IMG/VR virus record: IMGVR_UViG_3300042521_000473
Coordinates: 1-33,754 of that record
Length of the DNA: 33,754 nucleotides
Strand: one strand, 5' to 3'
Source: a virus
Below the pieces are notes generated by a model that made no database searches, was not told the DNA's origin, and was given only the letters and a program-made list of their open reading frames with translations. A program made the position numbers and the translations under genes. This document shows, piece after piece, positions 1 through 28,281 of this stretch; the first letter of the stretch is position 1; each line of letters starts with the position of its first letter.

Positions 1-1056
1 GCCTCGATGCAGGAACCCGACCGGCACGGGCACGCCGGCGTTGATCTGCTGCTCCAGCGTGGCGAACCCGGCCACCTTGGTGAACCGGGCCTTGATGCCG
101 TAGCTGCTCAGCGCCCGGATCTGCGCGGTCGGGTCAGTTGTGTCGCCGTAGGACTGAACCCTCTTCAGGTATTGATCGTCGCCGTTGGCGCCTCGCAGGG
201 TGCCGGGCTTGAGGTACTGCAGCAGCATGGCGCAGGAACTGCTGAAGCACATCCGGGCGGCTTGGGCACGATCGGCAGAGTCCATCTGCGCGAACCAGGG
301 CACCTGCAGCGGGTTGCCGTAGCCGGTCTGCTGCTGCAGCTGCACCGGAGGGCGGCCGGCCACCGTCAGCCGCCCAGACTCCACCAACCCCCACACGCGG
401 CGCGCCTCAGCCTGCCGGCGGTCAAGGTGCGGCACGCCAGGGCGGAAGTAGACCTCGCTGAAATAGGCCGCCGCTCTGGCTGGGTCCATCCCTGCGGGCC
501 GATCCTCGAACACCCGAGTCCAGCCGATCAGCGAGCCCTGCGGCGGATCGTGCAGGCCGGCGTACTCCTCAGCGAAATACAGTTGCTGCCAGGCGTTGCC
601 GCCCGGGTTAATCCCTTTGGCGATGGCAGCGGCTCGGGCTTTGTCGTAGGCGGTGCGCCGAACGCCGGTGTATTGCATCGCCCCGCGACCGGCACCAGAG
701 CCGGCCTCGATCACGTCGAGCTTGTCAAGCAAGGGGTGGCCGGTTTCGACGATCACGCAGCCGATGAAACCGCACGCCTCAGCTACGGTCAGCGGACTGA
801 TCTTGTTTTGGCTGAGACGCGAGACCTCGGGCCCCGTCAGGAATGTCAGCCATGATTGAAGATTGGCCAGCTCGTTCTGAGCCTCAGGTCTCGGCGCCGC
901 AGGGCTCCCCTGTGCCCTCCACAGCTCGGTGAACTCCTGGCGTTGCTCATCGCTCAGCGACTCATCCAGCGCCTGCAGGGCAGCCAGCTGATGCGGGGTG
1001 ATGGTGCCGGCGCGGGCGAGATGCTCAGCAGCAGCGCGGACGGTGGCGAAGGTCAT
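1..1056 (-). CDS. Modular endolysin, lysozyme-like plus C39-type peptidase (3' end cut by window edge)
   Basis: I translated this frame from the raw sequence: it is open from an ATG at 1056 to the left edge (352 codons, no stop). Residues about 85-225 look like a lysozyme or lytic transglycosylase fold, with a candidate catalytic Glu104 in VETGH and a GAMQYTG block (residues 125-131) resembling the GLMQ motif of that superfamily. Residues from about 245 match the start of a papain-like C39_2 peptidase: Gln257 in FAQ, likely nucleophile Cys270 in MCFSSSCAM, then NGDDQYL and YGDTTD blocks. The catalytic His and Asp would lie beyond the edge. The predicted role is cleavage of both glycan and peptide parts of host peptidoglycan at lysis. 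The start overlaps the preceding gene by ATGA, and small membrane proteins lie just upstream, as expected for a lysis cassette. No signal peptide is seen, so export probably depends on a holin. Confidence 0.8.
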   Translation of the reverse strand, partial: MTFATVRAAAEHLARAGTITPHQLAALQALDESLSDEQRQEFTELWRAQGSPAAPRPEAQNELANLQSWLTFLTGPEVSRLSQNKISPLTVAEACGFIGCVIVETGHPLLDKLDVIEAGSGAGRGAMQYTGVRRTAYDKARAAAIAKGINPGGNAWQQLYFAEEYAGLHDPPQGSLIGWTRVFEDRPAGMDPARAAAYFSEVYFRPGVPHLDRRQAEARRVWGLVESGRLTVAGRPPVQLQQQTGYGNPLQVPWFAQMDSADRAQAARMCFSSSCAMLLQYLKPGTLRGANGDDQYLKRVQSYGDTTDPTAQIRALSSYGIKARFTKVAGFATLEQQINAGVPVPVGFLHRG

Positions 1057-1931
1057 GTGATGGAGTCGATGAAGTTCCGATCGGGCCGCAGGTTGTCGAT
1101 GTTGGCGAGCATCGTTCCCCGGAACCCATCCATCAGCCAGATGGGGCGGTTGGCCTTGGCTGCAGTCTGCAGGCCGGAGACGTTCGACCGCAGCGCCCAG
1201 CTGTGGTCGGTGTCGAACACCTGCGGACCCTTGAATCCGGCGACGGGGGCAGGCCCGCCAGGGGCGATCCAGTCGGCACCGGTGCGGCGCATCCATTGCT
1301 GGCCGCTGGAGGGGCTCGCGCCACGGGCATAGCTGACGCCCACGGGTGTATCGGTGAGGCGCTGGACCTGCTTGACCACCCAGCCCTGAAACCAGCCGGT
1401 GCTGGGCCTGGTCAATTCGTTCCCGACCTCGAACAGCACATTGTCATAGCCCTCCAGGGTGCGCACCATCCGCTTGATGTGCGCCTTCTGGTAGCGATTC
1501 CAGGGGCCGCGCGCGTGAACGTCGTGGTGGGTCTTCGGGCCATGCCCGCGGAAGGGGTGGAACTCCCAGGCCCTCGGGAACAGATCGGGCAGGCTGCCCT
1601 CAAACAACACCACGCCGGTCACCATGTCCCGGCGGTCGGCCTCTGCAACGGCCTTCTCCATGCGCCGGTAGAACTTCCCGTTCAGGCTGAGGTCTTCCTT
1701 CCACGGCCCGCCCTTCACGCGGATCAGGCCGGGATCAGCGCCAACGAAAGGCGGGCTGGAGTTGACGAACGCCCGCGTCTCAATCGTCCATAGCCGGGTG
1801 AAGTTGCCGGTGAGCCGGTCGATCGGGGTGCGGTTCCCCGCCACCGGCTGCACCACGTCCCAGGTGTGGCTGCCGGCCAGCGTGCGGGCCTTGCCGTTAA
1901 TCAGAAACCGGTCGCCCTTGACGGTGATCAT
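1053..1931 (-). CDS. Glycoside-hydrolase-like protein of the lysis cassette (clan-A TIM-barrel type), copy A
   Basis: This 292-residue protein opens with a short strand region (MITVKGDRFLINGK) followed by the block LAGSHTW (residues 18-24), which I associate with cellulase-superfamily proteins related to the apiosidase-like/DUF6298 group. The block FEVGNEL carries Glu172 in the position of the clan-A acid/base (NE) motif. FTRLWTIET (residues 44-52), VVLFEG and DTDHSW (240-245) are other conserved barrel-like blocks. The expected second catalytic Glu is not evident: the C-terminal strand reads IWLMDG with Asp268. A related gene lies at 19339-20259 on the other strand. The gene overlaps its neighbours by ATGA on both sides, so it is translated with the lysis genes. 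Its substrate is unknown; a host surface polysaccharide is a reasonable guess. No signal peptide is seen. Confidence 0.65.
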   Translation of the reverse strand: MITVKGDRFLINGKARTLAGSHTWDVVQPVAGNRTPIDRLTGNFTRLWTIETRAFVNSSPPFVGADPGLIRVKGGPWKEDLSLNGKFYRRMEKAVAEADRRDMVTGVVLFEGSLPDLFPRAWEFHPFRGHGPKTHHDVHARGPWNRYQKAHIKRMVRTLEGYDNVLFEVGNELTRPSTGWFQGWVVKQVQRLTDTPVGVSYARGASPSSGQQWMRRTGADWIAPGGPAPVAGFKGPQVFDTDHSWALRSNVSGLQTAAKANRPIWLMDGFRGTMLANIDNLRPDRNFIDSIT

Positions 1932-2080
1932 TTCAGGTCGGGCAGGCGGTCGTTCGCGGCCTTGTCGGCGCGCCGGTAGAGCCGGCGCCAGAGCGGCTTG
2001 ACCACCAGCTCAGCGACGCCCAGGCCGAGGAACCACACGGCCAGGGCCAGTCGCTCATCGTTGGCGGTGGGGTGTGTCAT
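1928..2080 (-). CDS. Small single-span membrane protein of the lysis cassette
   Basis: A 50-residue reading frame found by translating the raw sequence. It has one hydrophobic segment (LALAVWFLGLGVAELVV, residues 11-27) followed by a strongly basic stretch (KPLWRRLYRRADK) and a polar tail. The start overlaps the stop of the upstream membrane-protein gene by ATGA, and its own stop overlaps the start of the glycosidase-like gene by ATGA. This coupling is the main support that it is real. One membrane span with a basic tail suits a small holin, pinholin or regulator of a holin. No family is recognised. Confidence 0.6.
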   Translation of the reverse strand: MTHPTANDERLALAVWFLGLGVAELVVKPLWRRLYRRADKAANDRLPDLK

Positions 2081-2310
2081 GAGTCGGGGTCAGTGGGGCG
2101 GCCCTTGCGCAGTTTCGGATTCAGGGTTTCGTATCCCAGCTGGAACGCCCCGGCGCTGGCGCCGCCGAGGCCCATGAAAGGCAGCCCGGTGAGCCAGCAG
2201 CGCTCTACATCCCCGCCAGCGCGGCGGCAGTCCACGATGTAGGCCATCCCCGCCAACACCGACAGGCTGGCCGCTGAGAACACGCTGGCCAGGACAGTGG
2301 GGCGATTCAT
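2077..2310 (-). CDS. Candidate holin (two membrane segments)
   Basis: A 77-residue protein with hydrophobic segments at about residues 7-25 (LASVFSAASLSVLAGMAYI) and 40-60 (LTGLPFMGLGGASAGAFQLG). A short loop between them carries two cysteines, and the C-terminal tail is charged (NPKLRKGRPTDPDS). Size, two spans and a charged tail are the usual features of class II phage holins, and the gene lies four genes upstream of the endolysin in an unbroken chain of ATGA overlaps. No sequence family is recognised, so the call rests on topology and position. The neighbouring 88- and 50-residue membrane proteins are alternative candidates for the pore former. Confidence 0.55.
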   Translation of the reverse strand: MNRPTVLASVFSAASLSVLAGMAYIVDCRRAGGDVERCWLTGLPFMGLGGASAGAFQLGYETLNPKLRKGRPTDPDS

Positions 2311-2573
2311 CGGTTCAGCTCCAGCCGGATGGTGCGGCGGTCCAGTTCCTGCACTTCCTGCTCCAGCTTCTCGAACCTGAGCCCGAACTGAGTCTGATTG
2401 CTCAGGATCTGGGTGATCTGGGTTTCCAGCTGTTGCAGCCGGTTTGGCAGGCTCACCACCAGCCAGCCCATGCCGCCGGCAGTGGCGAGAATTGCTGCAG
2501 CCATCAGGCTGGCGGCGGTCGCTTCGAGCACCTGGACCCTGGAGAATCTGCGGCGTTCAGGTGGCGGGGTCAC
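2307..2573 (-). CDS. Membrane-anchored coiled-coil protein, possible lysis accessory
   Basis: An 88-residue protein starting at GTG (2573). It has a basic N-terminus (PPERRRFSR), one hydrophobic segment at about residues 19-37 (ASLMAAAILATAGGMGWLVV), then a heptad-rich coiled coil to the end (LPNRLQQLETQ, RFEKLEQEVQELDRR). Single-span proteins with a long coiled coil next to a holin recall XhlA-type lysis accessory proteins and inner-membrane spanin subunits. That is an analogy of layout, not sequence recognition. It shares an ATGA overlap with the next gene and is separated by 44 bases from the gene upstream, so it is the first gene of the tightly coupled lysis block. Confidence 0.55.
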   Translation of the reverse strand: MTPPPERRRFSRVQVLEATAASLMAAAILATAGGMGWLVVSLPNRLQQLETQITQILSNQTQFGLRFEKLEQEVQELDRRTIRLELNR

Positions 2574-2617
2574 GGGCGTGGCGGATCTGCCTCAGTCTGC
2601 AGAGCGGCAGCCAAGCC

Positions 2618-3619
2618 TCAGACCAGCCGCGCCAGGAACAGCGGATTGGCGGCATCCGCTGAGCTGTTGTTGGCGAAATTGAGCACCTCCCATTCCTCAA
2701 CGCCAGCCGTGATCACGATGCTGTCACCAAAGCTAAAGCTGGTACTGGTGTAGGGGAAGTAGACGGCGAAATCCTCCGGCAGCGGCTCATTCACGTAGAA
2801 CGAATAGGAGCAGCCGAACAGAACGGGAGTGTAATTAGAGGCAAATGGCAAGTTGGTGCGCTGCAGGCGATAGGGGACGGAGATAACGTTGTTTGAGGCG
2901 TCAGAACTGGGATCATTTGAGGATGCAGACGATCCAACACTGCTATAGCCAAAAAGCCTTCGGCTCACTGCAAAAAAAGAATTAGTTGTAACATTTCTCA
3001 GTCCCTGACTTTGCGCATAGCTCCTGCGCAGCCTGTAAATATCTTGAAAGTGAGCACGTCCTACGCTGGTAGCGCTTATAGCGTTTGCTTCCATCAGCAT
3101 ATTTACAGCATGATGGAAAAATACCTGATTCAGATCCAGCCACGGCACCAGCGTTGCAGAGTCTGGCGTGATCATAAACGGATAGGGCGTTGCGCCATTC
3201 CTGATCACAAACCACGAATAGTCCGGGTTGTCGGTGCTGGTGTAGCGAACGACGTTAATCTCTGTGCTGTTTGACAGCGTTCCAGCCAGTGAGAAATGGT
3301 TAGCCGTGGTGTTGGTTGTCGTGCTGTAGAAATCCGTGTATTGCGTCCCGGTCGGCACATGCGTCGTGGCGTTCCATCCGGTTGCCACACTGACGCCAAT
3401 CGTGCTGGTTGAGATGACGAACCAGTAATAGCAGGTGCCGTAAGTCTTGGTGCCGTCGTACACCACCTGCAGGATTCTGTTTTCAACGCTGCCGCTCAGG
3501 AAAGAGTCATACCAAGACACCATCAAGCCGGCGTCGATAAACGCATCTTCTAGCAGTTGCGCTGCAGCCGATGCCAGCCAGGGAGCAGCAGCGGAATAGG
3601 TTTCCTTGGTGACGGGCAT
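2618..3619 (-). CDS. Unknown 333-residue protein, probable virion component
   Basis: No family is recognised. The protein is rich in Ser, Thr, Asn, Tyr and Phe, with many short beta-prone stretches (for example TCYYWFVIST and DYSWFVIRNG, two similar YxWFVI motifs), and has no membrane segment. Such composition is common in tail-tip or receptor-facing phage proteins. It lies between the fibre/baseplate-like genes and the lysis cassette, two bases after the 162-residue gene. The middle, about 2880-3270, is clearly more AT-rich than its surroundings, which suggests a separate origin for part of the gene. The ATG start is unambiguous, with MPVTKETYSAAAPWLA as the N-terminus. Confidence 0.6.
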   Translation of the reverse strand: MPVTKETYSAAAPWLASAAAQLLEDAFIDAGLMVSWYDSFLSGSVENRILQVVYDGTKTYGTCYYWFVISTSTIGVSVATGWNATTHVPTGTQYTDFYSTTTNTTANHFSLAGTLSNSTEINVVRYTSTDNPDYSWFVIRNGATPYPFMITPDSATLVPWLDLNQVFFHHAVNMLMEANAISATSVGRAHFQDIYRLRRSYAQSQGLRNVTTNSFFAVSRRLFGYSSVGSSASSNDPSSDASNNVISVPYRLQRTNLPFASNYTPVLFGCSYSFYVNEPLPEDFAVYFPYTSTSFSFGDSIVITAGVEEWEVLNFANNSSADAANPLFLARLV

Positions 3620-3621
3620 GG

Positions 3622-4110
3622 CTACAGAAGAGAAACAAACGGAATGCTTAGCTCAATGCTAGGCGTGGGCTCATCAAACTCCAAAGAACCCTCTGGCGGC
3701 AGGGCAACATTCCCGCCAGCGCCGGTGGCTTGCAGTACGGCAAACGGCACGACAAGGTTCAGGCTTGCCGTGGTCTCAGAGCTGCCCAGCCCCAGTGACG
3801 GCACCGGCAGCACCACGTCAGAATCAACCAGTGCAACCATCGTTGCCGCTGGCTGCCCGACGAATGCCGCACTGGCGGGCCATGCGGCAGTCGAAACCGT
3901 CACCTCATCGGCATAGCTGATCGACACCATCGGCAGGCTGCCGGTGATCTCGGCGATCCTGGCGGCGGCGTCCACCTCGGCGGCGATGGCCACCTCTGCC
4001 GCGTCAACAAGCGACACCTCAGCAGCACTGGCGCGATTGACCGCAGCGATCTGCGCCGGCTCGCCAACCACCAGCACCTCAGCCTTCAGCATGGCGCCGA
4101 TGACGGCCAT
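3622..4110 (-). CDS. Unknown 162-residue Ala/Val-rich protein, probable virion component
   Basis: No family is recognised. The first half is rich in alanine and acidic residues and looks helical (AAEVSLVDAAEVAIAAEVDA). The second half is beta-prone with many prolines and ends in hydrophobic residues (IELSIPFVSLL). The start forms a TGATG overlap with the upstream BppU-like gene, so the two are translationally coupled and probably belong to the same tail-end assembly. A cluster of similar small genes (4.9-3.6 kb) separates the S74 fibre from the lysis genes. Confidence 0.55.
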   Translation of the reverse strand: MAVIGAMLKAEVLVVGEPAQIAAVNRASAAEVSLVDAAEVAIAAEVDAAARIAEITGSLPMVSISYADEVTVSTAAWPASAAFVGQPAATMVALVDSDVVLPVPSLGLGSSETTASLNLVVPFAVLQATGAGGNVALPPEGSLEFDEPTPSIELSIPFVSLL

Positions 4111-4935: not shown

Positions 4936-7383
4936 TCAGGCTAGAGACTGCAGCGCTGCCTCCAGCGCGGCGATCCTGGCCTCATGGTCGTTTGACACGT
5001 TGATCAGGTGCACGCCGAACCGGTCGTAGCTGACGCCCTCCGCCTGGCCTCCGACGCCCCACATCACCATCTCCGGTGCATACTCCGCCACCTCTTCAGC
5101 GATCAGGCCCCACACCCTGATGGTCGGATCGTCGCTGGTGTTCTCCGGGTTCGGCAGGTAGCTCACCGGCCTGGTGGCTGACAGGATCCGGCGGCTTTCG
5201 GCCAGCGGTGCTGTCTCAATTTCGACCTTGTACTGCCGCGATGACGTGACCCGCTGCACCTGATCGTTGGCGGTGTTCAGGTAGACGTTGGCGCTCACCC
5301 CCGTGGTGGTGTTGGTGCGGATGCCGGAGCTGAAGACGGTGCCGTTGGCGGTGAAGGTGCCATCGCTCACCAGCGCGTTGGAGAACGTCTTGGCCCCGCC
5401 GATAGTCTGCGCGCCGGTGGTGTAGACGCCGTTGGTCACAGTGGCAGCGTTGCCGGTGATGTTGGTGGACCATGCCAGGCCCGTGGCCGTGCTGCTGTCT
5501 GCCACCAGCACCTGACCATTGGTGCCCACTGCCAGCTTGGTGAGGGTCGTAGCGGCGCTGGCCGCCAGCAGATCGCCTTTGGTGTAGCTGGCGAGGTTGG
5601 TGCCGCCCCTGGCCACCGCCAGGGTGCCGCTGGTCAGGTTGCTGGCGTTGCGGCATTCGGTGCTGACCTCCTCAATCGCCGCCTGCACGTTGGTGGCGAT
5701 GATCGCGCCAGTGGCGACGAAATCCACCCCGCTGGCGGTCTGGGTGGTGTAGCCCGCCGATGTATCCACCTCAACCCAGGCCGTGCCGGTGGAAAGCAGC
5801 AGATCGGGCGGGGCCAGCGCAACGGCGGGTGCGGGGCTGGTCCCTGTGCCGGACTCGCTGACCACCAGGTAGTAGCCCGAGTTGGCCGCCGCAGCGGCAG
5901 GCAGCGCGTTGCCGACCACCAGACCCAGTGCTGTGCCCTCGGCGGTGGTGCTGGCTACTTCGTTGTCGGAGGCGTCATAGGTGCCGGCGAACTTGACCGC
6001 ACCGGTGCTGATCCCGATCGGCTGCCAGACGTTGCCATCCCACATGAAGAAGGCTTTGTCGATCGGGTTGAAGTGCAACTGGCTGATGTACTCAGCAACG
6101 GGGATCGCCTCGCCGATCTTCCCCACGCTGTAATCCGCCAGCTTGGCCCCGGTCACGGCGTCGTTCGCCAGTCGATCGGTCGGGAACTCGCCGGCCGTGA
6201 TCTTGCTGGCGTTCAGCTCGGGGATGTTCGCCTCTGGGATGGTCGGCGCCAGATGCTGCTGCCATTCGCTGCCGGTCCAGGTCCACTCCACACCCGTGGC
6301 GGCGTTGAACCACTGCTGCCCCACGAACGCCCCGCTACCGGACGGCGATCCGTTGCTCACCACGGCAGAGGATTGATCCGCCAGTTTGGCGGCGGTGATC
6401 GCGTCGTCCTTTACCGCACCGGTGGGAATGCTCAGCGCGGCGTACTTCAGCTCGGTGATCACTCCATCGGCGATCGTTGCAGCGAATGTCCCGGTGCCGG
6501 TGCCGGTCACGTCACCGGTGAGGGTGATGGTCTGATCGCCGGTGTTGGTGCCCGAGCTGGTGCCCGAGAACGTCGAGCCGTTCGTCCAGGTGCCGGATGC
6601 CACCGCCAGCGTGCCCAGTCCCAGCGTGCTGCGTTGCGCTGCAGCATCGACACCAGCGATCAAGGCGCGGCCGGCAGCGGTCAGCGGCACCTCTTCAACT
6701 GGGCCCGCACCGGCGGAGCTGCGGCCCAACAGTCGATCAGTGGTGGAGACGTTCTGGATGCGGTCGTAGGTGACAGCACCGGCGGCGATCTTGGCCGTGG
6801 CTACCGCACCGGCGCCCAGCTTGGCCTCCAGTACCGCCCCATCAGCCAGCTTGCCGCTGGTCACATTCAGGTCAGCCAGCGCGGCGGTGTTCACCGATCC
6901 GGCGGCGTAGGCGGCTGAGCCCAGCGGCGTCACCTTTGCCGTGGTCACAGCGCCGTCAGCCAGCTTCCCGGTGGTCACCTGCAGATCGCCGATGCCGGCG
7001 GTTGGCATCACCACCTGCTGGAATGCTGCGCCGTCCCACACCTGCAGATTGCCGGTGCCGCTGTGCAGCCACCCGCGCCCGCGATGGTTCCCCGTGCTAG
7101 GGGCTGTGACCGCAACGGCGGTTGCTGCATCGGCGGCCAGCTTGGCGGCGGTGAGCGCGCCATCGCTGATAGCCACGGCGCCCAGCTTGGTCGTGCTGCC
7201 CTGATCCAGCTTGGCTAGGTCAATCTCGCCGGCGTCCACCAGGTCGATGCCGGCGGCGACCAGATCCTTCAGCGTGATCCGCTTCGTCTCGCTGGCGGAA
7301 ATGTCGGCGATGGGCACCGCATCATTGGCCGCCGCGCCAGCCTTCGAGAGCGGCGTGAGCTGGGTTATCCGCTGATCAGCCAA
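4936..7383 (-). CDS. Long tail fibre with C-terminal S74-type intramolecular chaperone
   Basis: An 815-residue protein. The N-terminus (MADQRITQLTPLSKAGAAAND) is a fibre-attachment type I know from phages and prophages of picocyanobacteria. Residues about 60-440 carry many degenerate repeats of the form AKLADGAVTTAKV, typical of fibre shafts. The last 100 residues match a peptidase S74 chaperone: SSRQYK, with Ser and Lys five apart as in the self-cleaving dyad, then VWGLIAEEVAEYAPEMV, GVSYDRFGVHLINV and a final helix (DHEARIAALEAAL). This domain drives trimer folding and normally cleaves itself off. The start is TTG at 7383, supported by a GAGG ribosome site seven bases upstream. The stop lies in the junction motif described in the findings. 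Confidence 0.85.
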   Translation of the reverse strand: MADQRITQLTPLSKAGAAANDAVPIADISASETKRITLKDLVAAGIDLVDAGEIDLAKLDQGSTTKLGAVAISDGALTAAKLAADAATAVAVTAPSTGNHRGRGWLHSGTGNLQVWDGAAFQQVVMPTAGIGDLQVTTGKLADGAVTTAKVTPLGSAAYAAGSVNTAALADLNVTSGKLADGAVLEAKLGAGAVATAKIAAGAVTYDRIQNVSTTDRLLGRSSAGAGPVEEVPLTAAGRALIAGVDAAAQRSTLGLGTLAVASGTWTNGSTFSGTSSGTNTGDQTITLTGDVTGTGTGTFAATIADGVITELKYAALSIPTGAVKDDAITAAKLADQSSAVVSNGSPSGSGAFVGQQWFNAATGVEWTWTGSEWQQHLAPTIPEANIPELNASKITAGEFPTDRLANDAVTGAKLADYSVGKIGEAIPVAEYISQLHFNPIDKAFFMWDGNVWQPIGISTGAVKFAGTYDASDNEVASTTAEGTALGLVVGNALPAAAAANSGYYLVVSESGTGTSPAPAVALAPPDLLLSTGTAWVEVDTSAGYTTQTASGVDFVATGAIIATNVQAAIEEVSTECRNASNLTSGTLAVARGGTNLASYTKGDLLAASAATTLTKLAVGTNGQVLVADSSTATGLAWSTNITGNAATVTNGVYTTGAQTIGGAKTFSNALVSDGTFTANGTVFSSGIRTNTTTGVSANVYLNTANDQVQRVTSSRQYKVEIETAPLAESRRILSATRPVSYLPNPENTSDDPTIRVWGLIAEEVAEYAPEMVMWGVGGQAEGVSYDRFGVHLINVSNDHEARIAALEAALQSLA

Positions 7384-19299: not shown

Positions 19300-19338
19300 G
19301 CCACTCGATAGACCTACTCCAAAGGCTATGGCTTGACT

Positions 19339-20259
19339 GTGATCGGCATTAAAGGCGACAGCTTCACCTGGGACGGCCGGCCGGTGCGCCTGGCAGGATC
19401 ACACACTTGGAACACGGTCCAGCGCATTGCGGGCGAACGGATCAGCCTGCAGCAGCTGGCGTTGCCTGAGCCATCCAAAAGCGTCAGGCCCTTTACCCGG
19501 CTATGGACGATCGAGACAAAGGGATTCGTCGGTGAAAACAGCCTGTGGGGCAGCAACACGCCGGGGCTGATCAAGATCCAGGATGGGCCATATCGCAACG
19601 ACGGCAGCCTGAACCGCAAGTATTACCGGGCGCTGGAGCGCACCGTCAAGAGGGCTGAGCGCCGGGACATCGTGACCGGCGTGGTGCTGTTCGAGGGCAG
19701 CATCCCCGACATCTTCCCGCGTGCATGGGAGCAGCACCCGTTCAATGGCCTAGGTCCCGCCAGCCACGATCAGGTTCATACGCAAGGGCCATGGAACAAA
19801 CTCCAGCAGCGGCACATCACCCGCACGGTGCGGACGCTTGAGCCCTACGACAACGTGATTTATGAGGTTGGCAACGAACTCATGGCCACCAGCACGGGGT
19901 GGTTCCAGCGGTGGGTTGTTGGACTGGTCAAGAAGCTCACCAACAAACCCGTAGGCGTTTCCTATGCCCGTGGCATCAGGCCCAGCAAGGGCAAGCAAGA
20001 GACGTGGATGGTCGCCTCCGGTGCCGACTGGATTGCACCACAGGGCAGCAGCATCGCCCAGATTGGTGGTGTGCCTGGGTTCCGTGGCCCGCAGGTGCTG
20101 GACACTGATCATGCTTGGCCGTTGGTGCCGAATCTTGCCGGGATGAAGTCAGCCTGGCAGCGTGGATTTGACGTGCTGCTGATGGATGGGATGAACGGCA
20201 CCATGCTTAGGAATCAGGGCAGCATGGCCGCTGATCGAGCGTGGGTTGCGGATCTGTAG
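19339..20259 (+). CDS. Glycoside-hydrolase-like protein, copy B, on the opposite strand
   Basis: A 306-residue protein collinear with the lysis-cassette protein at 1053-1931, with roughly half the residues identical by eye. Shared blocks are LAGSHTW, FTRLWTIET, VTGVVLFEGS, YEVGNEL (candidate acid/base Glu), STGWFQ, PVGVSYARG, GADWIAP and DTDHAW. Like copy A it ends with a strand LLMDGMNGTM, where a second catalytic Glu might be expected but Asp is found. I chose GTG at 19339 because its N-terminus, MIGIKGDSF, aligns with copy A (MITVKGDRF); a TTG at 19333 is also possible. No signal peptide or membrane span is visible. It runs against all surrounding late genes, so it needs its own promoter and resembles a moron gene. 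Confidence 0.65.
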   Translation: MIGIKGDSFTWDGRPVRLAGSHTWNTVQRIAGERISLQQLALPEPSKSVRPFTRLWTIETKGFVGENSLWGSNTPGLIKIQDGPYRNDGSLNRKYYRALERTVKRAERRDIVTGVVLFEGSIPDIFPRAWEQHPFNGLGPASHDQVHTQGPWNKLQQRHITRTVRTLEPYDNVIYEVGNELMATSTGWFQRWVVGLVKKLTNKPVGVSYARGIRPSKGKQETWMVASGADWIAPQGSSIAQIGGVPGFRGPQVLDTDHAWPLVPNLAGMKSAWQRGFDVLLMDGMNGTMLRNQGSMAADRAWVADL

Positions 20260-20891: not shown

Positions 20892-21146
20892 CTACGGTTT
20901 TGGAACCCACCGCAACGCAGATTCTAAAACCTCGGTTTCAGGATCGTCCGCGAGGTATTGGCCTGCGCTGTTCCGGGGCTGGTCGTAAATCCATTCGCTG
21001 CCATCTGGCGCAGTCCATGGTTGGAACCTCGTCGGGTTCTCGGGCCACTGCCATGCCACTGCCTGGAGTCCCGCCTGCAGCCCACTGATGAACGCCTGCG
21101 GCAGTCGCGACCTGCGATACCATGCGTTCGGCTGTCCAGTGCTACC
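20892..21146 (-). pseudogene. Truncated remnant: C-terminal module related to the protein at 21790-22410
   Basis: The frame is open for 85 codons from just after a TAG at 21147-21149 to a TAG at 20892, but has no ATG. The only usual start is GTG at 21059, giving 55 residues. The sequence reads PWTAPDGSEWIYDQP, GQYLADDPETEVL and ESALRWVPKP. It matches the end of the 206-residue protein (EWTSPTGTLYRV, GQFLPDDPQTPPR, ESLRWVVVEP) in order and spacing and ends at the same point. I therefore read it as the 3' piece of a once longer related gene. A short functional gene starting at the GTG cannot be excluded. The rest of 20855-21213 holds nothing else I can support. Confidence 0.5.
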
Positions 21147-21213
21147 CTATTTATGTGCCCCGGCGGACTGGCATCCCCGAGGCGCGACCAATCCGCTACT
21201 CAGGAGCAGACTG

Positions 21214-21768
21214 ATGACTAAAGACTACTTGACGAGCGAACCATTCAAACGGCTATTTGCGGTCTTCTATCTCTGGTACGAAGGAGACAGCAATTTAATA
21301 GACATCTTTTGTGGAATCGCCACTAGCTTGAACTCAGCAATCAACATTGCTAACAGCAGGGCAAACGGGAGGCCTTGTGAAATTTTTATGCCAGGGCAAG
21401 AGGCTCCAGATGATGGAAGCTATGGTGACAAAAGATTGCGTTACAGAATTGCAGCAGTTGAGGCTGACTTTGCCTTTGAAGACGGTTGTGCATACGACGC
21501 CAACCAGCCTGCCACTCAAAAGTGGGGTGAAGGTTGCGACAGCTCTGTGGCTATCAACTACGCTTCTATGTTCAGTGCCTGTCGCTCCCTGGAATCACTT
21601 CCAGACTTTTCACAAGCTAAGGAAGCATGGGATAGTCTTGAGGTTGATTGGCAGGCAGTTTTTGCGGCCTGCAAGCCTGTAACGGAACCGGTCAACGAGC
21701 GGGAGAAATTACGGGAACGACGCGCTTCCTGGCAGCGCATACAAAAGCTGTTGTGCGCTGATAACTGA
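21214..21768 (+). CDS. Unknown 184-residue plus-strand protein (moron-like)
   Basis: The ATG at 21214 has an AGGAG site eight bases upstream and is preferred to earlier in-frame starts. The protein is soluble and acidic and has seven cysteines spread along it (DIFCGIA, RPCEIF, DGCAYD, EGCDSS, SACRSL, AACKPV, LLCADN). It starts TKDYLTSEPFKRLFAVFYLWYEG and has a charged helix near its end (NEREKLRERRASWQRIQKL). No family is recognised. Base composition is visibly more AT-rich than the flanking genes, and it runs against the late genes. It sits between two related C-terminal modules, one intact and one broken. These are signs of a recently acquired accessory gene; a lysogenic-conversion or anti-phage role is possible but unsupported. 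Confidence 0.65.
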   Translation: MTKDYLTSEPFKRLFAVFYLWYEGDSNLIDIFCGIATSLNSAINIANSRANGRPCEIFMPGQEAPDDGSYGDKRLRYRIAAVEADFAFEDGCAYDANQPATQKWGEGCDSSVAINYASMFSACRSLESLPDFSQAKEAWDSLEVDWQAVFAACKPVTEPVNEREKLRERRASWQRIQKLLCADN

Positions 21769-21789: not shown

Positions 21790-22410
21790 TCATGGCTCAA
21801 CCACCACCCACCGCAGGGATTCCCTGGGCGGGGTCTGTGGGTCATCGGGGAGGAACTGCCCATCCTCCCCAGCGGCCTGGGCTACCCGGTAGAGGGTGCC
21901 GGTGGGGGAGGTCCATTCCTGGCCGAGGTTCTGGGCCGGAGGCGGCACCGTCAGCGCCTCGGTGAAAGCGGCTGGCAGATCAAACCCCTGCGCCATGCTC
22001 AGCACCCCAGCCAGCAGCTGATCAGAGATCAGGCCCAGCCCACGGGCCATCGACCAGGAGTCGAGAAACACCCGAGCATCCCCATCGGCAGCCTTGCCGA
22101 GGCCCACACCCAACCCAAGGCCTAGGGCCGGAAGCTGCTGCAGGGCCGTTCCTAGGAGTTGATTGATCGCCTCGGAGGCCTGCACTGCGGAGCCAAACTG
22201 CACCCACTGAGCATCGGACTGACCATTGATTCCCCAAAATGCTTCGGCTATCTGGCGACTGTCAAACCAGTACCAATCATCTACTGGGTAGATGTAATCA
22301 GCGTGGTTTGCGGCGGTTAGCGTAAATCTTGGCGCGTAAACGCTGGTGCCTGCATACTGGAGCAGGTCATCGGTGAACTTGTAGAAACCGGGGTAGGACA
22401 TGGCGATCAT
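21790..22410 (-). CDS. Unknown protein of the fibre region, 206 residues
   Basis: Start chosen at ATG 22410, which forms a TAATG overlap with the repeat-protein gene; another in-frame ATG lies at 22401. The N-terminal third is aromatic (YPGFYKFTDDLLQY, DYIYPVDDWYWFDSRQ). The middle is Gly/Leu/Ala-rich (LPALGLGLGVGLGKAADGDA). The C-terminus has the module EWTSPTGTLYRV ... DDPQTPPRESLRWV, which also occurs in the broken frame at 20892-21146. No family is recognised. Coupling to the upstream gene suggests that the two products act together at the particle surface. Confidence 0.55.
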   Translation of the reverse strand: MIAMSYPGFYKFTDDLLQYAGTSVYAPRFTLTAANHADYIYPVDDWYWFDSRQIAEAFWGINGQSDAQWVQFGSAVQASEAINQLLGTALQQLPALGLGLGVGLGKAADGDARVFLDSWSMARGLGLISDQLLAGVLSMAQGFDLPAAFTEALTVPPPAQNLGQEWTSPTGTLYRVAQAAGEDGQFLPDDPQTPPRESLRWVVVEP

Positions 22411-24050
22411 TAGGCGGTAACGGTCCACCCTTTGGCGGTGGCAATGGTGGGGTCGTAGCCTGCTCCATTGATGCCGTAGTTGCCGGTTACAGTGATTGTT
22501 TGGCCGGTAACAACAGGCAGGCCGGTGAATAGTTCGTTCAGTGCGGCGGCTGATAACTTGCAGCTGGCTACAGAGAATGAGAAGCGCATTCCTGTAAGCT
22601 GGGCACGGGCGAGGGATGAGCAGTTGGCGACAAAGTTTGCGGCATTTGCTGCTGAGGAAATGCCGCTCATGTCAAGCGGCGGGATGCTTTCCAGGGAGGT
22701 GCAGCCTTGGAACATGCTGCTCATGTTCGTAACTGCTGCAACACTGCCTGGAAATACAGGGATTGTTTGCAGACTGCTGCAGCTTTGGAACATGCTGCTC
22801 ATGTTCGTAACTGCTGCAACACTGCCTGGAAATGCAGGGATTGTTTGCAGACTGCTGCAGTTTTGGAACATGCTGCTCATGTTCGTAACTGCTGCAACAC
22901 TGCCTGGAAATACAGGGATTGTTTGCAGACTGAAGCAGCCTTGGAACATGCCGCCCATGTTCGTAACTGCTGCAACACTGCCTGGAAATACAGGGATTGT
23001 TTGCAGACTGCTGCAGCTTTGGAACATGGTAGCCATGTTCGTAACTGCTGCAACACTTCCTGGAAATGCAAGGATTGCTTGCAGACTGCTGCAGCCGCTG
23101 AACATGCTGCTCATGTTCGTAACTGCTGCAACACTGCCTGGAAATACAGGGATTGTTTGCAGACTGGGGCAGCCGCTGAACATGCTGCTCATGTTCGTAA
23201 CTGCTGTGGCATTAGGCAGTGACGGCAGCGATTGCAATGAGCGGCAGCCCTGAAACAGGGTTGATGCCATACTCGTCAACGCACCAACCGATACAATGTT
23301 GATCCGCTCTACATTTGCGTGAACAACAGTCGTCGAACCCCCAATCGTTAATCCCGTGCCACTGACCTGCGGCAATGCCATCGCAATATCCAGCCATCCT
23401 GTCGCATAACCATTCACCAACCCCGTCTGTCCATGCTTCTGAAAGAAGTTGGCAACTGTTAGGTTCTGTCCTGCCTGTGGTGTAATCGTCACTACCGCCA
23501 CCTTATACGGCAGCAACGTGGCCGAACCGTCACCCGTAAACGTTACCGGACTGCCGCCAGCAGTCAGCGAAACTTGGAACGTATTTGCTGCTGCATTAAC
23601 AACAAAATACCGCTGCTTCGCAACAATTCCCGTTGTGGTAACAATGCTGTAGAACCGTACAATCGCGCCATTGCTCAGCCCATGAGCCGTGCGGTTGACA
23701 GTGCTAGTTGCAGCCGTAAACGTAACCGGCGCATTCGTTCCAGCCAGCGCAGCAGAGTTAAAGTCAAACTCATAATCTGCTCTGGCATTGCTTGCATAGT
23801 TCGTCGTCGTCCCATCGCCATAATTGATGATGTAGGCGCCTTGGGCTAAGAATGCGAAAAAGTTGCCACCCTTGCCAACACCATCGCCAGGCCACACCGC
23901 ATAGAGGCCAACGATCTTCTGCTCTGCCGCGCCAGGTGCGGTCAACGCTGGCCACGCCGCATTTCGCACCCACTCGTCAGCCGCTGCACCACCCGCACCG
24001 CCTGCTACCAGCGTGCTGCCCAGATAGATTTTCCCAGTAGTCGTAGGCAT
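22410..24050 (-). CDS. BspA-like leucine-rich-repeat surface protein
   Basis: A 546-residue protein. The N-terminus (MPTTTGKIYLGSTLVAGGAGG) is like that of small phage fibre proteins. Residues about 105-175 contain a HGL-type module (VNRTAHGLSNGAIVRFYS ... YFVVNAAANTFQVSL) shared with the BppU-like protein. From about residue 263 to 453 there are repeats of 26 residues with the consensus VTNMSSMFQxCSSLQTIPVF, the BspA/DUF285 leucine-rich repeat. The C-terminus (GTVTGNYGI-like TITVTGNYGINGAGYDPTIA) closes the solenoid and matches the usual end of such proteins. These proteins bind surfaces or polymers, so a receptor-binding or adhesion role on the virion is plausible. The start follows the fibre gene by two bases. 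Confidence 0.75.
   Translation of the reverse strand: MPTTTGKIYLGSTLVAGGAGGAAADEWVRNAAWPALTAPGAAEQKIVGLYAVWPGDGVGKGGNFFAFLAQGAYIINYGDGTTTNYASNARADYEFDFNSAALAGTNAPVTFTAATSTVNRTAHGLSNGAIVRFYSIVTTTGIVAKQRYFVVNAAANTFQVSLTAGGSPVTFTGDGSATLLPYKVAVVTITPQAGQNLTVANFFQKHGQTGLVNGYATGWLDIAMALPQVSGTGLTIGGSTTVVHANVERINIVSVGALTSMASTLFQGCRSLQSLPSLPNATAVTNMSSMFSGCPSLQTIPVFPGSVAAVTNMSSMFSGCSSLQAILAFPGSVAAVTNMATMFQSCSSLQTIPVFPGSVAAVTNMGGMFQGCFSLQTIPVFPGSVAAVTNMSSMFQNCSSLQTIPAFPGSVAAVTNMSSMFQSCSSLQTIPVFPGSVAAVTNMSSMFQGCTSLESIPPLDMSGISSAANAANFVANCSSLARAQLTGMRFSFSVASCKLSAAALNELFTGLPVVTGQTITVTGNYGINGAGYDPTIATAKGWTVTA
22711..23216 (-). repeat. 78-bp tandem repeat array inside the leucine-rich-repeat gene
   Basis: The anchor AACATG on the plus strand recurs at 22711, 22789, 22867, 22945, 23023, 23101 and 23179, exactly 78 bases apart each time. 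Most of each unit is identical (for example TTCGTAACTGCTGCAACACT), so the repeats are near-identical in DNA and not only in protein. Differences cluster at a few codons (the two residues before the Met that precedes Phe, the two after Phe and the one after Cys). Confidence 0.9.
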
Positions 24051-26205: not shown

Positions 26206-28281
26206 TCAGATACCCCACACAAAGGCCTCGGGATAGCGAACCCCAAAGTCGCAATCCTGCAGGATGCTGATCTCAACGCTGCCGGAATCCTGATACTTAT
26301 AGGGATTCACGCCGATGTCTTGGCCGCTCCAGAACGCCAGCAGCACCTGCGAGAAGTCGCCGAAGAGGCTATTATTCACCTCCAGCTGGTTTGACATCAG
26401 GGCCGGGTAGCCGTTGATCTCGTTGTTGCGCAGAACGTAGAAGTCGCTCTGAGCGTTCTCCAGCGTGGTCTTGTAGACGCCCCTTGCATGGGCGTTCATC
26501 ATGTACGCCATGCTGGGCACATCCAGGTTCGCCAGGCTCACCTTCGTTTCCATCTCAACCAGGTTGAGGAAGGTGCCAAAGTTATAGCTTACGCTGTTGA
26601 TGGTCTTCGCCTGGCCGCCGGACAGCGTTTCAGTCTTCACCCCATCGGTGTACCGCAGGCCCAGGGGGCGCTTGGATCCGCCTGGGGAGTACAGGAAGTC
26701 CTTGTCAATACCAAGGGCGACCTTGCGGCTCAGGTGGCTGCGAACCCAGGCTTCGGAGGAGAATCCGGTCTGGCCGATGAAACGGCGCGTCAGGACAGTT
26801 TTCGCACCGACAGTCTTGGGCGTGAGGCTGACCTGGCCAACCAGGATCTCAGAGGCGTCAGGCGCCTGGCCCTCACCAACCCAGTAGTGAGTAGGGCCGG
26901 CGGTTTCCTTGGGGATGTCGATGTCACCCACCAGACCGCTCAGCACGGTGGCGCCGGCAGCGGTGATGCTCAGGCGGTTGTAGATCAGCTCAATCATCGA
27001 GCCAATCAGCAGGTCGGTGTCAATCAGCGCACCGCCGGTGGTGAATCCACCTGCGGTCTGATCAGCGCGGATGTTCTTACGACCGGCGCCCATGCCGGGG
27101 ATCTGCGCGACCATCACGTCGGCGGGGATGCGGAACGAGCCCTGCAGCTCGCGGCCCGAATGCTTCACCGCAGCGGCGGACGCTTCCAGCTCCAGTCCGG
27201 CAGCATCACGCAGACGGGCATCGGTCGGGTCAGAAAAGTGCCGAATCGCATTCAGGATGTTGTACCGCTTCACCTCGCGGTCAGACATGCCGATCAGGCC
27301 ATCAGCGCTCGACTGCATGCGACCGCTCATCTCGACCCTCTTGGCACCCTTGGCTTGCATCGCCAGCTCAAACAGCTCGGCGCGAACGCAGTCCACGCTG
27401 GCGCCAGACTCGATGTATTCATCGGCCTTTTCGTTGCCTGCGCCGGCCTTCTCGCACATATTCCGAATGGTCTTCGAGCGCTCGCGCTCAGCCTGCACAG
27501 CGGTCATCTCCCGCTCTGCAACGTCAATGGTCTGGGTTGTCATAGCAGGAGATGCGGTTTGCATTTCTCCATTCAGGCTATGCACCTCCTCATTCTCTTC
27601 CTTCGCCACCTGATCATCCACGGGCGGTTCAGTTACCGCATCAACCAAAGCAGCAGTCTTGGCAACTGGCTTCCGTGGCTCGACAAACTCCACCAGTTTG
27701 GCCAATGCCTGCGGCATCTTGGCGAATCGACCCAAGGGCACAGCAGCTGCCTTCACATCGCGAGCCGGTGCCATCTCCGATGCAAACCCAAACTCAACAG
27801 CCTCGGCAGCAGTAAGCCAGCTCTCGGCGGCCATCAGAGAACGCACGTCATCCTCGCTCAGTCCAGAGCGATCAACGTACGCTTGCCGATACGCAGTCGA
27901 AATCCGATCGATTAGATCAGCTTCCTTCCTGAGGTCATTGGCGCCACCAATGCCGAGCCCCCATGCCTCATGGATCATAAGGAAGCTGCTCTCTGGCATG
28001 ACGATCTCATCGCCAGCCATCGCAATCAACGATGCAGCACTGGCAGCCACGCCGTCAATAATCACGCGCTTCCGTCCTGCGTACCGGGACAGCATCGAAT
28101 AGATCGCTAAGCCCTCCAGCGCATCGCCGCCATAGCTGAACAGATTGATCGTCAGCGGCTCATCGCGACCCGTCAACGCGCTCTGCACCTCTCGGGCTGT
28201 AATCTCCCAGCCCACCTCGCCAATCAAAGCCATTTCAAGCCCTGAGTTGTCGGCGGCGGCCTTAATTGCTACGCCAGTCAT
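26206..28281 (-). CDS. ClpP-type prohead protease fused to HK97-type major capsid protein
   Basis: A 691-residue protein. Residues 15-180 are a ClpP-like (S14) protease: strand INLFSYGGDALEGLAIY, nucleophile Ser81 in GVAASAAS, His104 in LMIHEAW and the block ESWLTAAEAVEFGFASE. A linker of about 60 residues (residues 181-240) and a coiled-coil delta-type domain (EREMTAVQAERERSKTIRN) follow. From about residue 370 the sequence is an HK97-fold capsid protein (VGEGQAPDASEILVGQVSLT, PSMAYMMNAHARGVYKTTLE, WSGQDIGVNPYKYQDSGSVE). Such fusions are known in annotated phages. The protease would mature the prohead, perhaps after cleaving the linker. Internal start signals near residue 240 are discussed in the findings. 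Confidence 0.9.
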   Translation of the reverse strand: MTGVAIKAAADNSGLEMALIGEVGWEITAREVQSALTGRDEPLTINLFSYGGDALEGLAIYSMLSRYAGRKRVIIDGVAASAASLIAMAGDEIVMPESSFLMIHEAWGLGIGGANDLRKEADLIDRISTAYRQAYVDRSGLSEDDVRSLMAAESWLTAAEAVEFGFASEMAPARDVKAAAVPLGRFAKMPQALAKLVEFVEPRKPVAKTAALVDAVTEPPVDDQVAKEENEEVHSLNGEMQTASPAMTTQTIDVAEREMTAVQAERERSKTIRNMCEKAGAGNEKADEYIESGASVDCVRAELFELAMQAKGAKRVEMSGRMQSSADGLIGMSDREVKRYNILNAIRHFSDPTDARLRDAAGLELEASAAAVKHSGRELQGSFRIPADVMVAQIPGMGAGRKNIRADQTAGGFTTGGALIDTDLLIGSMIELIYNRLSITAAGATVLSGLVGDIDIPKETAGPTHYWVGEGQAPDASEILVGQVSLTPKTVGAKTVLTRRFIGQTGFSSEAWVRSHLSRKVALGIDKDFLYSPGGSKRPLGLRYTDGVKTETLSGGQAKTINSVSYNFGTFLNLVEMETKVSLANLDVPSMAYMMNAHARGVYKTTLENAQSDFYVLRNNEINGYPALMSNQLEVNNSLFGDFSQVLLAFWSGQDIGVNPYKYQDSGSVEISILQDCDFGVRYPEAFVWGI

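Follow-up and report, generated by a model that had tools for sequence, protein, structure and literature searches.

Lysis cassettes with several membrane proteins

XhlA, XhlB and XlyA of PBSX from Bacillus subtilis are all required for lysis, according to the accessible parts of two reports (PMC5589764, PMC10630273). In the mycobacteriophages Girr and NormanBulbieJr (NBJ), the single-segment protein LysF1b acts as holin and the two-segment LysF1a as modulator, as described in the available text of PMC13056207. Gordonia phages carry three consecutive holin-like membrane genes together with an endolysin in one cassette (PMC9671378, accessible in part), and the lytic cassettes of Enterococcus phages exchange holins, XhlA-like proteins and endolysin domains between phages (available part of PMC10630273). 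For the cyanophage PaV-LD, an endopeptidase and a holin have been expressed (PMC9096620, accessible in part). Here, we analyse a run of five reading frames on the minus strand of the IMG/VR virus record IMGVR_UViG_3300042521_000473. The window, i.e., the whole stretch analysed, comprises 33,754 bases, and the run extends from position 2573 to beyond base 1. It encodes three small membrane proteins (S1, S2 and S3), a predicted glycosidase (g4) and an endolysin (g5), and probably represents the late lysis operon of a phage that resembles siphoviruses and is related to Synechococcus phage S-LBS1.

As far as the accessible PBSX literature describes it, the window cassette resembles PBSX in uniting an endolysin with a small membrane protein that bears a charged helix and with a further membrane protein. 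Unlike PBSX, whose host is Gram-positive, it includes a third membrane protein, a predicted glycosidase and an endolysin of two domains, and its S1 types have no Pfam XhlA match. LysF1a and LysF1b, which jointly set lysis in their phages, resemble S2 and S1 in layout as two different, ATGA-joined membrane proteins, one with two segments and the other with one segment and a charged helix, but in the available text their gene order is reversed, the host is a mycobacterium and there is no third membrane protein. The Gordonia cassettes differ by their Gram-positive hosts and by LysA/LysB, and the accessible part of PMC9671378 reports neither a clan GH-A gene nor ATGA-bounded exchange. Enterococcus phages, in the part of the report available, swap mainly wall-binding domains, whereas the relatives of the window swap the middle catalytic domain and an extra enzyme gene. 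No earlier description of the cassette, nor of any lysis cassette containing a glycosidase, could be recognised by title or abstract in a search whose coverage excluded most subscription journals.

Organisation of the cassette

The products, in the order S1-S2-S3-g4-g5, comprise 88, 77, 50, 292 and more than 351 residues. The features are as follows, with the joints read on the coding strand:

2307..2573, minus strand: S1, membrane protein of 88 residues with a single segment, its C-terminal part helical and charged; GTG start; type S1a of slot 1
2307..2310, minus strand: ATGA joint S1/S2
2077..2310, minus strand: S2, 77-residue membrane protein with a clear hydrophobic segment and a second, weak one, a Cys-pair loop and a GYxTxNPxLR-like motif
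2077..2080, minus strand: ATGA joint S2/S3
1928..2080, minus strand: S3, 50-residue single-segment membrane protein with a basic tail ending in DRLPDLK
1928..1931, minus strand: ATGA joint S3/g4
1053..1931, minus strand: g4, 292 residues, predicted glycoside hydrolase of clan GH-A with a TIM barrel; optional operon insert
1053..1056, minus strand: ATGA joint g4/endolysin
1..1056, minus strand: g5, endolysin with an N-terminal helical domain, Phage_lysozyme2 and Peptidase C39; the window edge leaves 352 of 424 residues

A first-pass annotation of the window had proposed a lysis cassette of five genes joined by ATGA. All four joints agree with it, and the lysis assignment is borne out by the endolysin domains, the gene order, and the overlaps and endolysin linkage conserved in relatives. 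Its text counted three different membrane proteins ahead of the endolysin, which is correct, each having one clear hydrophobic segment, while its title spoke of two mini membrane proteins, which is one too few. The 292-residue gene was rightly counted but left without a reading; here, it is predicted to encode a clan GH-A glycosidase, which most relative cassettes lack.

Overlaps of four bases occur at 4/4 cassette joints and at 5/22 other close joints of minus-strand genes, the latter taken from a hand-drawn list of such genes in the window. The ATGA joints thus exceed chance. By eye, no purine-rich ribosome site is present upstream of S3, g4 and g5, and S2 is preceded by GGAG, a pattern that fits translational coupling of the cassette genes without proving it. 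A search for sigma-70-like promoters in positions 1-3700 found none, with 0.6 expected. The endolysin gene is followed, with a one-base overlap, by an HNH endonuclease gene (coordinates from relatives extending past the left edge). The terminase of the window is 61% identical to that of S-LBS1, and matches to the endolysin come from 109 phage records, every one named Synechococcus phage or cyanophage. Judging from these sequences, the host is likely a freshwater picocyanobacterium.

The endolysin

Two related loci, L005 and L006, are 98.9-100% identical to the window in the proteins of all cassette genes, the single difference being the S1 start residue as transcribed. Both reach beyond the left window edge and provide the complete endolysin of 424 residues. 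The initial reading of this protein, a lysozyme-like and a C39-like domain with no signal peptide, is borne out. In domain searches, Phage_lysozyme2 is matched at E 4.8e-8 (33.7 bits, curated cut-off 28.2), and Peptidase_C39_2 at E 1.5e-3 on the edge-cut and at E 7.1e-10 on the full 424 residues of L005. In addition, the full protein matches PHROG 10051 (endolysin) over its peptidase part at E 3.2e-70, and neither an N-terminal hydrophobic stretch nor a signal peptide is visible in its sequence. The peptidase His and Asp had been expected to the left of the window, and L005 and L006 indeed contain them as H362 and D378, which together with C270 form the C39 active-site Cys/His/Asp.

Among relatives, the N-terminal domain of about 58 residues is constant and possibly wall-binding, the C39 domain is usually constant, and the middle consists of a Phage_lysozyme2, a GH24-like or a GH19-like domain; the L009 endolysin has a different second domain. 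The N-terminal domain (L005:6876-7052) has no Pfam name, the best match being DnaT at E 0.052. A stretch in L023 that is related to it matches the endolysins of the isolated Synechococcus siphoviruses S-CBS1, S-CBS3, S-LBS1 and KBS-S-2A.

The small membrane proteins

The best 19-residue Kyte-Doolittle means of the hydrophobic segments of S1, S2 and S3 are 1.75-1.76. Slot 1 is occupied by three interchangeable types. In S1a (88-94 residues), the N-terminus is basic and the membrane segment is followed by a helix, S1b (59-63 residues) starts with the membrane segment, followed by basic residues and a charged helix, and S1c (87-119 residues) carries the membrane segment at its end. A script reading of 24 loci revealed a GTG start in 12/12 S1a and 12/12 S1b genes; S2 nearly always starts with ATG. 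XhlA (PF10779) was not matched by S1a at E≤1, nor by S1b and S1c at E≤0.1; these are short queries, and S1 may yet work like XhlA.

The Cys pair in the S2 loop is present in 24/29 sequences, and its GYxTxNPxLR-like motif was read by eye. S3 is a single-segment protein that ends in DRLPDL in most relatives. The S2 of L015 (L015:5394-5855), and likewise that of L077, L088 and L100, is extended at its C-terminus by a fused helix-turn-helix domain, which in L015 matches Pfam HTH_23 at E 1.5e-9. The fusion is a putative membrane-tethered lysis protein with predicted DNA binding.

Conservation and module exchange

Relatives were collected by an endolysin-based scan, from which the best 80 of 107 candidates were retained; 46 of the 80 were profiled and 34 set aside by eye as near-duplicates or fragments. 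Of the 46 profiled loci, 36 contain an S1 type, 34 contain S2, 31 contain S3 and 8 contain g4, and 7 had none of these. Clustering of the 34 S2-positive loci at 95% identity gave 28 groups, in which the presence of S2 is therefore by selection; S1 occurs in 26, S3 in 25 and g4 in 7 of them. The order S1-S2-S3-(g4)-endolysin is kept, and ATGA is found at 81/86 cassette joints: 26/26 for S1>S2, 24/25 for S2>S3, 6/6 for S3>g4, 7/7 for g4>endolysin, 15/19 for S3>endolysin, 1/1 for S2>g4 and 2/2 for S2>endolysin. As the groups are mutually related, this total reflects conservation and not 86 independent events. In L104, which is grouped with L103, the S1>S2 joint reads GTGA.

The suggestion that three membrane proteins are needed did not hold as a general rule and was rejected, since S3 is missing from 3/28 groups, S1 is undetected in 2/28, and three marine isolates have only two such genes. 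S1a is combined with a GH19 middle domain in 2, GH24 in 7 and Phage_lysozyme2 (LYS2) in 3 groups, and S1b with the same domains in 6, 4 and 2 groups, respectively. S1c occurs once with GH19 and once with GH24, and both groups in which S1 was not found have GH24. In these groups, S1 type and endolysin middle domain combine freely. Across the loci compared, the ATGA joint is the constant boundary at which membrane-protein genes and whole lysis genes were exchanged. S1c, C39 and GH24-like matches follow in a row in L143, L149 and L153 with the enzyme parts apart, as would be expected if peptidase and lysozyme were encoded separately.

The g4 gene as an optional insert

In 7/28 cassette groups, g4 lies directly before the endolysin gene, and 21/28 are without it. 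The last 30 bases of S3 are alike before g4 or the endolysin gene, with a mean pairwise identity of 0.75 versus 0.60 for the membrane-segment region (21 loci). An empty-site pair illustrates the insertion: L104, with g4, and L097, without it, are 92% (90 bases) and 97% (150 bases) alike in the flanks and differ by the cleanly inserted g4, which is bounded by ATGA on either side.

The window protein itself has no Pfam, PHROGs or NCBIfam match at E≤1. A structural model built from the alignment of the 37-member family (predicted local distance difference test score, pLDDT, 92.8; predicted template modelling score, pTM, 0.92) was used for the fold search, while an earlier one, based on 17 sequences, reached a pLDDT of 52.1, which is poor, and was excluded from fold searches. 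GH5 mannanases are on top of the matching solved structures (3wh9, E 9.1e-8; 3wfl, Z 22.5, root-mean-square deviation 3.2, 259 aligned), and GH35 and GH140 enzymes rank behind them; we take these three families together to represent clan GH-A. Pfam Cellulase (GH5) is matched by 25/37 family members at E≤1, with a best value of 9e-7. The pair N171-E172, corresponding to the Asn-Glu acid/base motif, is invariant (37/37), with barrel strand 4 assigned by position. After E172 there is no invariant Glu, and D240, D242 and H243 are invariant (37/37 each) within an Asp-x-Asp-His motif. The second catalytic place, which we presume from the GH5 pattern, was assigned by position and not by a measured distance, and one of D240, D242 and H243 may act as nucleophile.

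Hence, g4 shares with GH5 and other clan GH-A enzymes the predicted barrel fold, the acid/base motif and the Cellulase matches, but differs from them by Asp-x-Asp-His in place of an invariant second Glu. Because this Glu is missing, the claim is limited to the clan GH-A fold and does not extend to a typical GH5 enzyme; g4 is predicted to be a GH5-like glycoside hydrolase of this clan. Its interpretation as an endolysin part or a membrane protein was rejected on the grounds of the Pfam GH5 matches, the barrel model and the GH5 structure matches.

The family was found in 59 viral loci. Within the 37 records searched, g4 occurs in 12, and the window alone among these has two copies; in record G026, the cassette lacks g4, yet a g4 is present elsewhere. 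The second copy of the window is located among structural genes, outside the operon:

19333..20259, plus strand: g4 paralogue, 308 residues, 53% amino acid identity

The same arrangement recurs in L045, L047-L051, L064 and L065. A 226-residue protein without a Pfam match is encoded nearby (21088-21768, plus strand) and is present in 4/52 g4 contexts. These contexts are 51 loci picked by eye against duplicates plus the window paralogue; at some loci the gene caller missed small genes or the g4 label, and those were read from separate layouts. A tree built from 43 family members places all 10 operon copies within one clade of 14 (100/100), together with 4 non-operon copies, and the second copy of the window belongs to a different clade. 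Given this confinement of the operon copies to one clade, the operon may have acquired g4 long ago, with the gene moving again afterwards. No match to g4 was obtained in isolated phages (tblastn, E≤0.01). Nor was g4 located in any prokaryote genome: in a collection of genomes from 84,980 species, two scans with two-peptide patterns returned 22 and 45 stretches, none of which was confirmed, by a method that misses distant relatives.

Isolated cyanophages

In S-LBS1, SLBS1_A27 is an S1b relative, A28 is a Cys-pair membrane protein, A29 has 93 residues and no strong membrane segment, and A30 is a GH24-M15 lysozyme; A28/A29 and A29/A30 are ATGA joints. As A27 ends in ATGA at 19964-19967, SLBS1_A28 probably starts there (L188:19964-20170) and not at the annotated 20009. 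S-SRP02 contains an unannotated S1b gene (L189:4001-4174; record 6063-6230) upstream of the small membrane gene SSRP02_p009, and a separate C39 peptidase gene nearby on the opposite strand. Upstream of their endolysin genes, the marine phages S-CBS1, S-CBS3 and KBS-S-2A show only two small membrane genes, one of the membrane-plus-charged-helix kind and one for a single-segment protein of about 50 residues, S2 not being seen. The endolysin of S-CBS1 is of the Glucosaminidase-C39 type, and that of S-CBS3 is GH24-M15.

S-LBS1 and the three marine phages thus resemble the window in having small membrane genes followed by an endolysin with a related N-terminal domain; S-LBS1 additionally shares the S1b relative and the ATGA joints, and S-CBS1 the C39 second domain. 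Different from the window, S-LBS1 and S-CBS3 possess an M15 peptidase instead of C39, and g4 was not found in the isolates. The small upstream genes of the isolates are annotated as hypothetical or signal-peptide proteins, never as lysis genes, and no word beginning with 'holin' occurs in the text of the isolation papers PMC6157547 and PMC8557907. A 'VNLTPTPKDD' membrane protein of L023 and S-SRP02 was dropped as a candidate, because following it led into regions of head genes in LUZ100 and a Rhizobium phage.

Proposed mechanism and alternative explanations

We infer every functional step of the following scheme, for which the sequences provide the anatomy, conservation, module exchange, clean g4 insertion and enzyme domains, and modelling the predicted fold. 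S1, with its membrane segment and charged helix, and S2, hairpin-like with a Cys-bearing loop, would assemble in the inner membrane into a holin complex in which one permeabilises and the other tunes, as in XhlA/XhlB or LysF1b/LysF1a; the dispensable S3 would adjust timing or assembly. The PBSX, Girr/NBJ and Gordonia precedents are the reason for placing S1 and S2 as a two-part holin and S3 as an accessory. The endolysin and g4, both without a visible signal peptide, would be held in the cytoplasm until the membrane is breached. The endolysin would then cleave glycan strands with its lysozyme/transglycosylase-like domain and peptide links with C39, and g4, released with it, may serve as an optional extra that cuts host envelope or sheath polysaccharide. 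Cyanobacterial wall-linked polysaccharide is a conceivable g4 substrate, for which a literature search gave no usable support. The ATGA joints would couple translation and provide the constant exchange boundary. That the cassette is a late lysis operon working in this way is, in our judgement, probable.

Several observations weigh against this scheme. Searches of Pfam, PHROGs and NCBIfam retrieved no holin-family match for S1, S2 or S3, and although the strong membrane segment of S2 is found in 29/29 sequences, its second segment exceeds the threshold in only 5/29. A lipobox o-spanin partner has no candidate in the first 9000 bases of the window, in L005 or in the S-LBS1 lysis region, which leaves outer-membrane disruption without explanation. 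The median ratio of non-synonymous to synonymous polymorphism (pN/pS) is 0.14 for S1b (63 pairs), 0.31 for g4 (27), 0.37 for S1a (66), 0.55 for S3 (313) and 0.76 for S2 (404). The S2 and S3 values are not low, though saturated and poorly aligned pairs are frequent among them, and do not by themselves establish purifying selection. Finally, lysis operons account for only 9/52 g4 contexts, the remainder being varied, and thus its role may not be lysis.

The holin is not nameable by sequence, and S1 is as good a candidate as S2. S1 alone might form the hole, like LysF1b, with S2 as a modulator only, like the two-segment LysF1a. This would agree with the LysF1b/LysF1a genetics in Girr and NBJ, where an ATGA joint is present too (available text of PMC13056207), with the layout that S1b shares with LysF1b, and with the three marine isolates that lack S2 and still have a membrane-plus-charged-helix gene upstream of the endolysin. 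However, the basic N-terminus of S1a predicts the opposite orientation, S1c has its segment last, the likeness to LysF1b is one of layout, and 3/46 loci have S2 without a detected S1; we regard this possibility as doubtful, but worth serious consideration. S1 might instead be an Rz-like inner-membrane spanin that breaks the outer membrane, with S2 or S3 as holin. S1a has a basic N-terminus, one inner-membrane segment and a coiled-coil-like helix predicted to be periplasmic, and it matches PHROG 739 (Rz-like spanin) at E 0.0041. This match is weak, the lipoprotein partner is missing from the regions named above, and S1b and S1c differ from S1a in layout while occupying the same slot, which makes a spanin function quite improbable.

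For g4, the chance falls only slightly short of even that it has no lysis role and is a mobile auxiliary gene, e.g., one that targets host polysaccharide or sheath for another purpose, which rides in the late operon. The varied contexts, the second copy far from the lysis genes of the window and the absence of g4 from most cassette groups all point in this direction. Against it, the insertion preserved the joints exactly, as ATGA is found at every S3>g4 and g4>endolysin joint, the single well-supported clade of the operon copies speaks for a lasting arrangement, and the position of g4 links its expression to that of the endolysin. A more far-reaching proposal would be that g4 is a virus-restricted glycoside hydrolase family with Asp replacing the Glu nucleophile, recruited in one phage clade as a dedicated lysis enzyme for wall or sheath polysaccharide beyond the reach of standard endolysins, and that the ATGA joint is an evolved swap connector; we consider this unlikely.

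Other features of the window

Positions 22410-24050 on the minus strand encode a possible variable surface or tail protein of 546 residues, which contains leucine-rich repeats of the DUF285/BspA type (E 3.8e-32). On the same strand, positions 26206-28281 encode one 691-residue protein that combines a ClpP-like protease with a major capsid domain.

Conclusions

The cassette provides testable lysis-gene candidates for phages whose isolated representatives carry no lysis annotation on the small upstream genes. The swapped modules constitute a natural series for finding which part does what. In addition, the analysis offers an endolysin scaffold that naturally accommodates three alternative catalytic inserts, and a predicted viral glycosidase family that, for the window protein, is unnamed in Pfam, PHROGs and NCBIfam.

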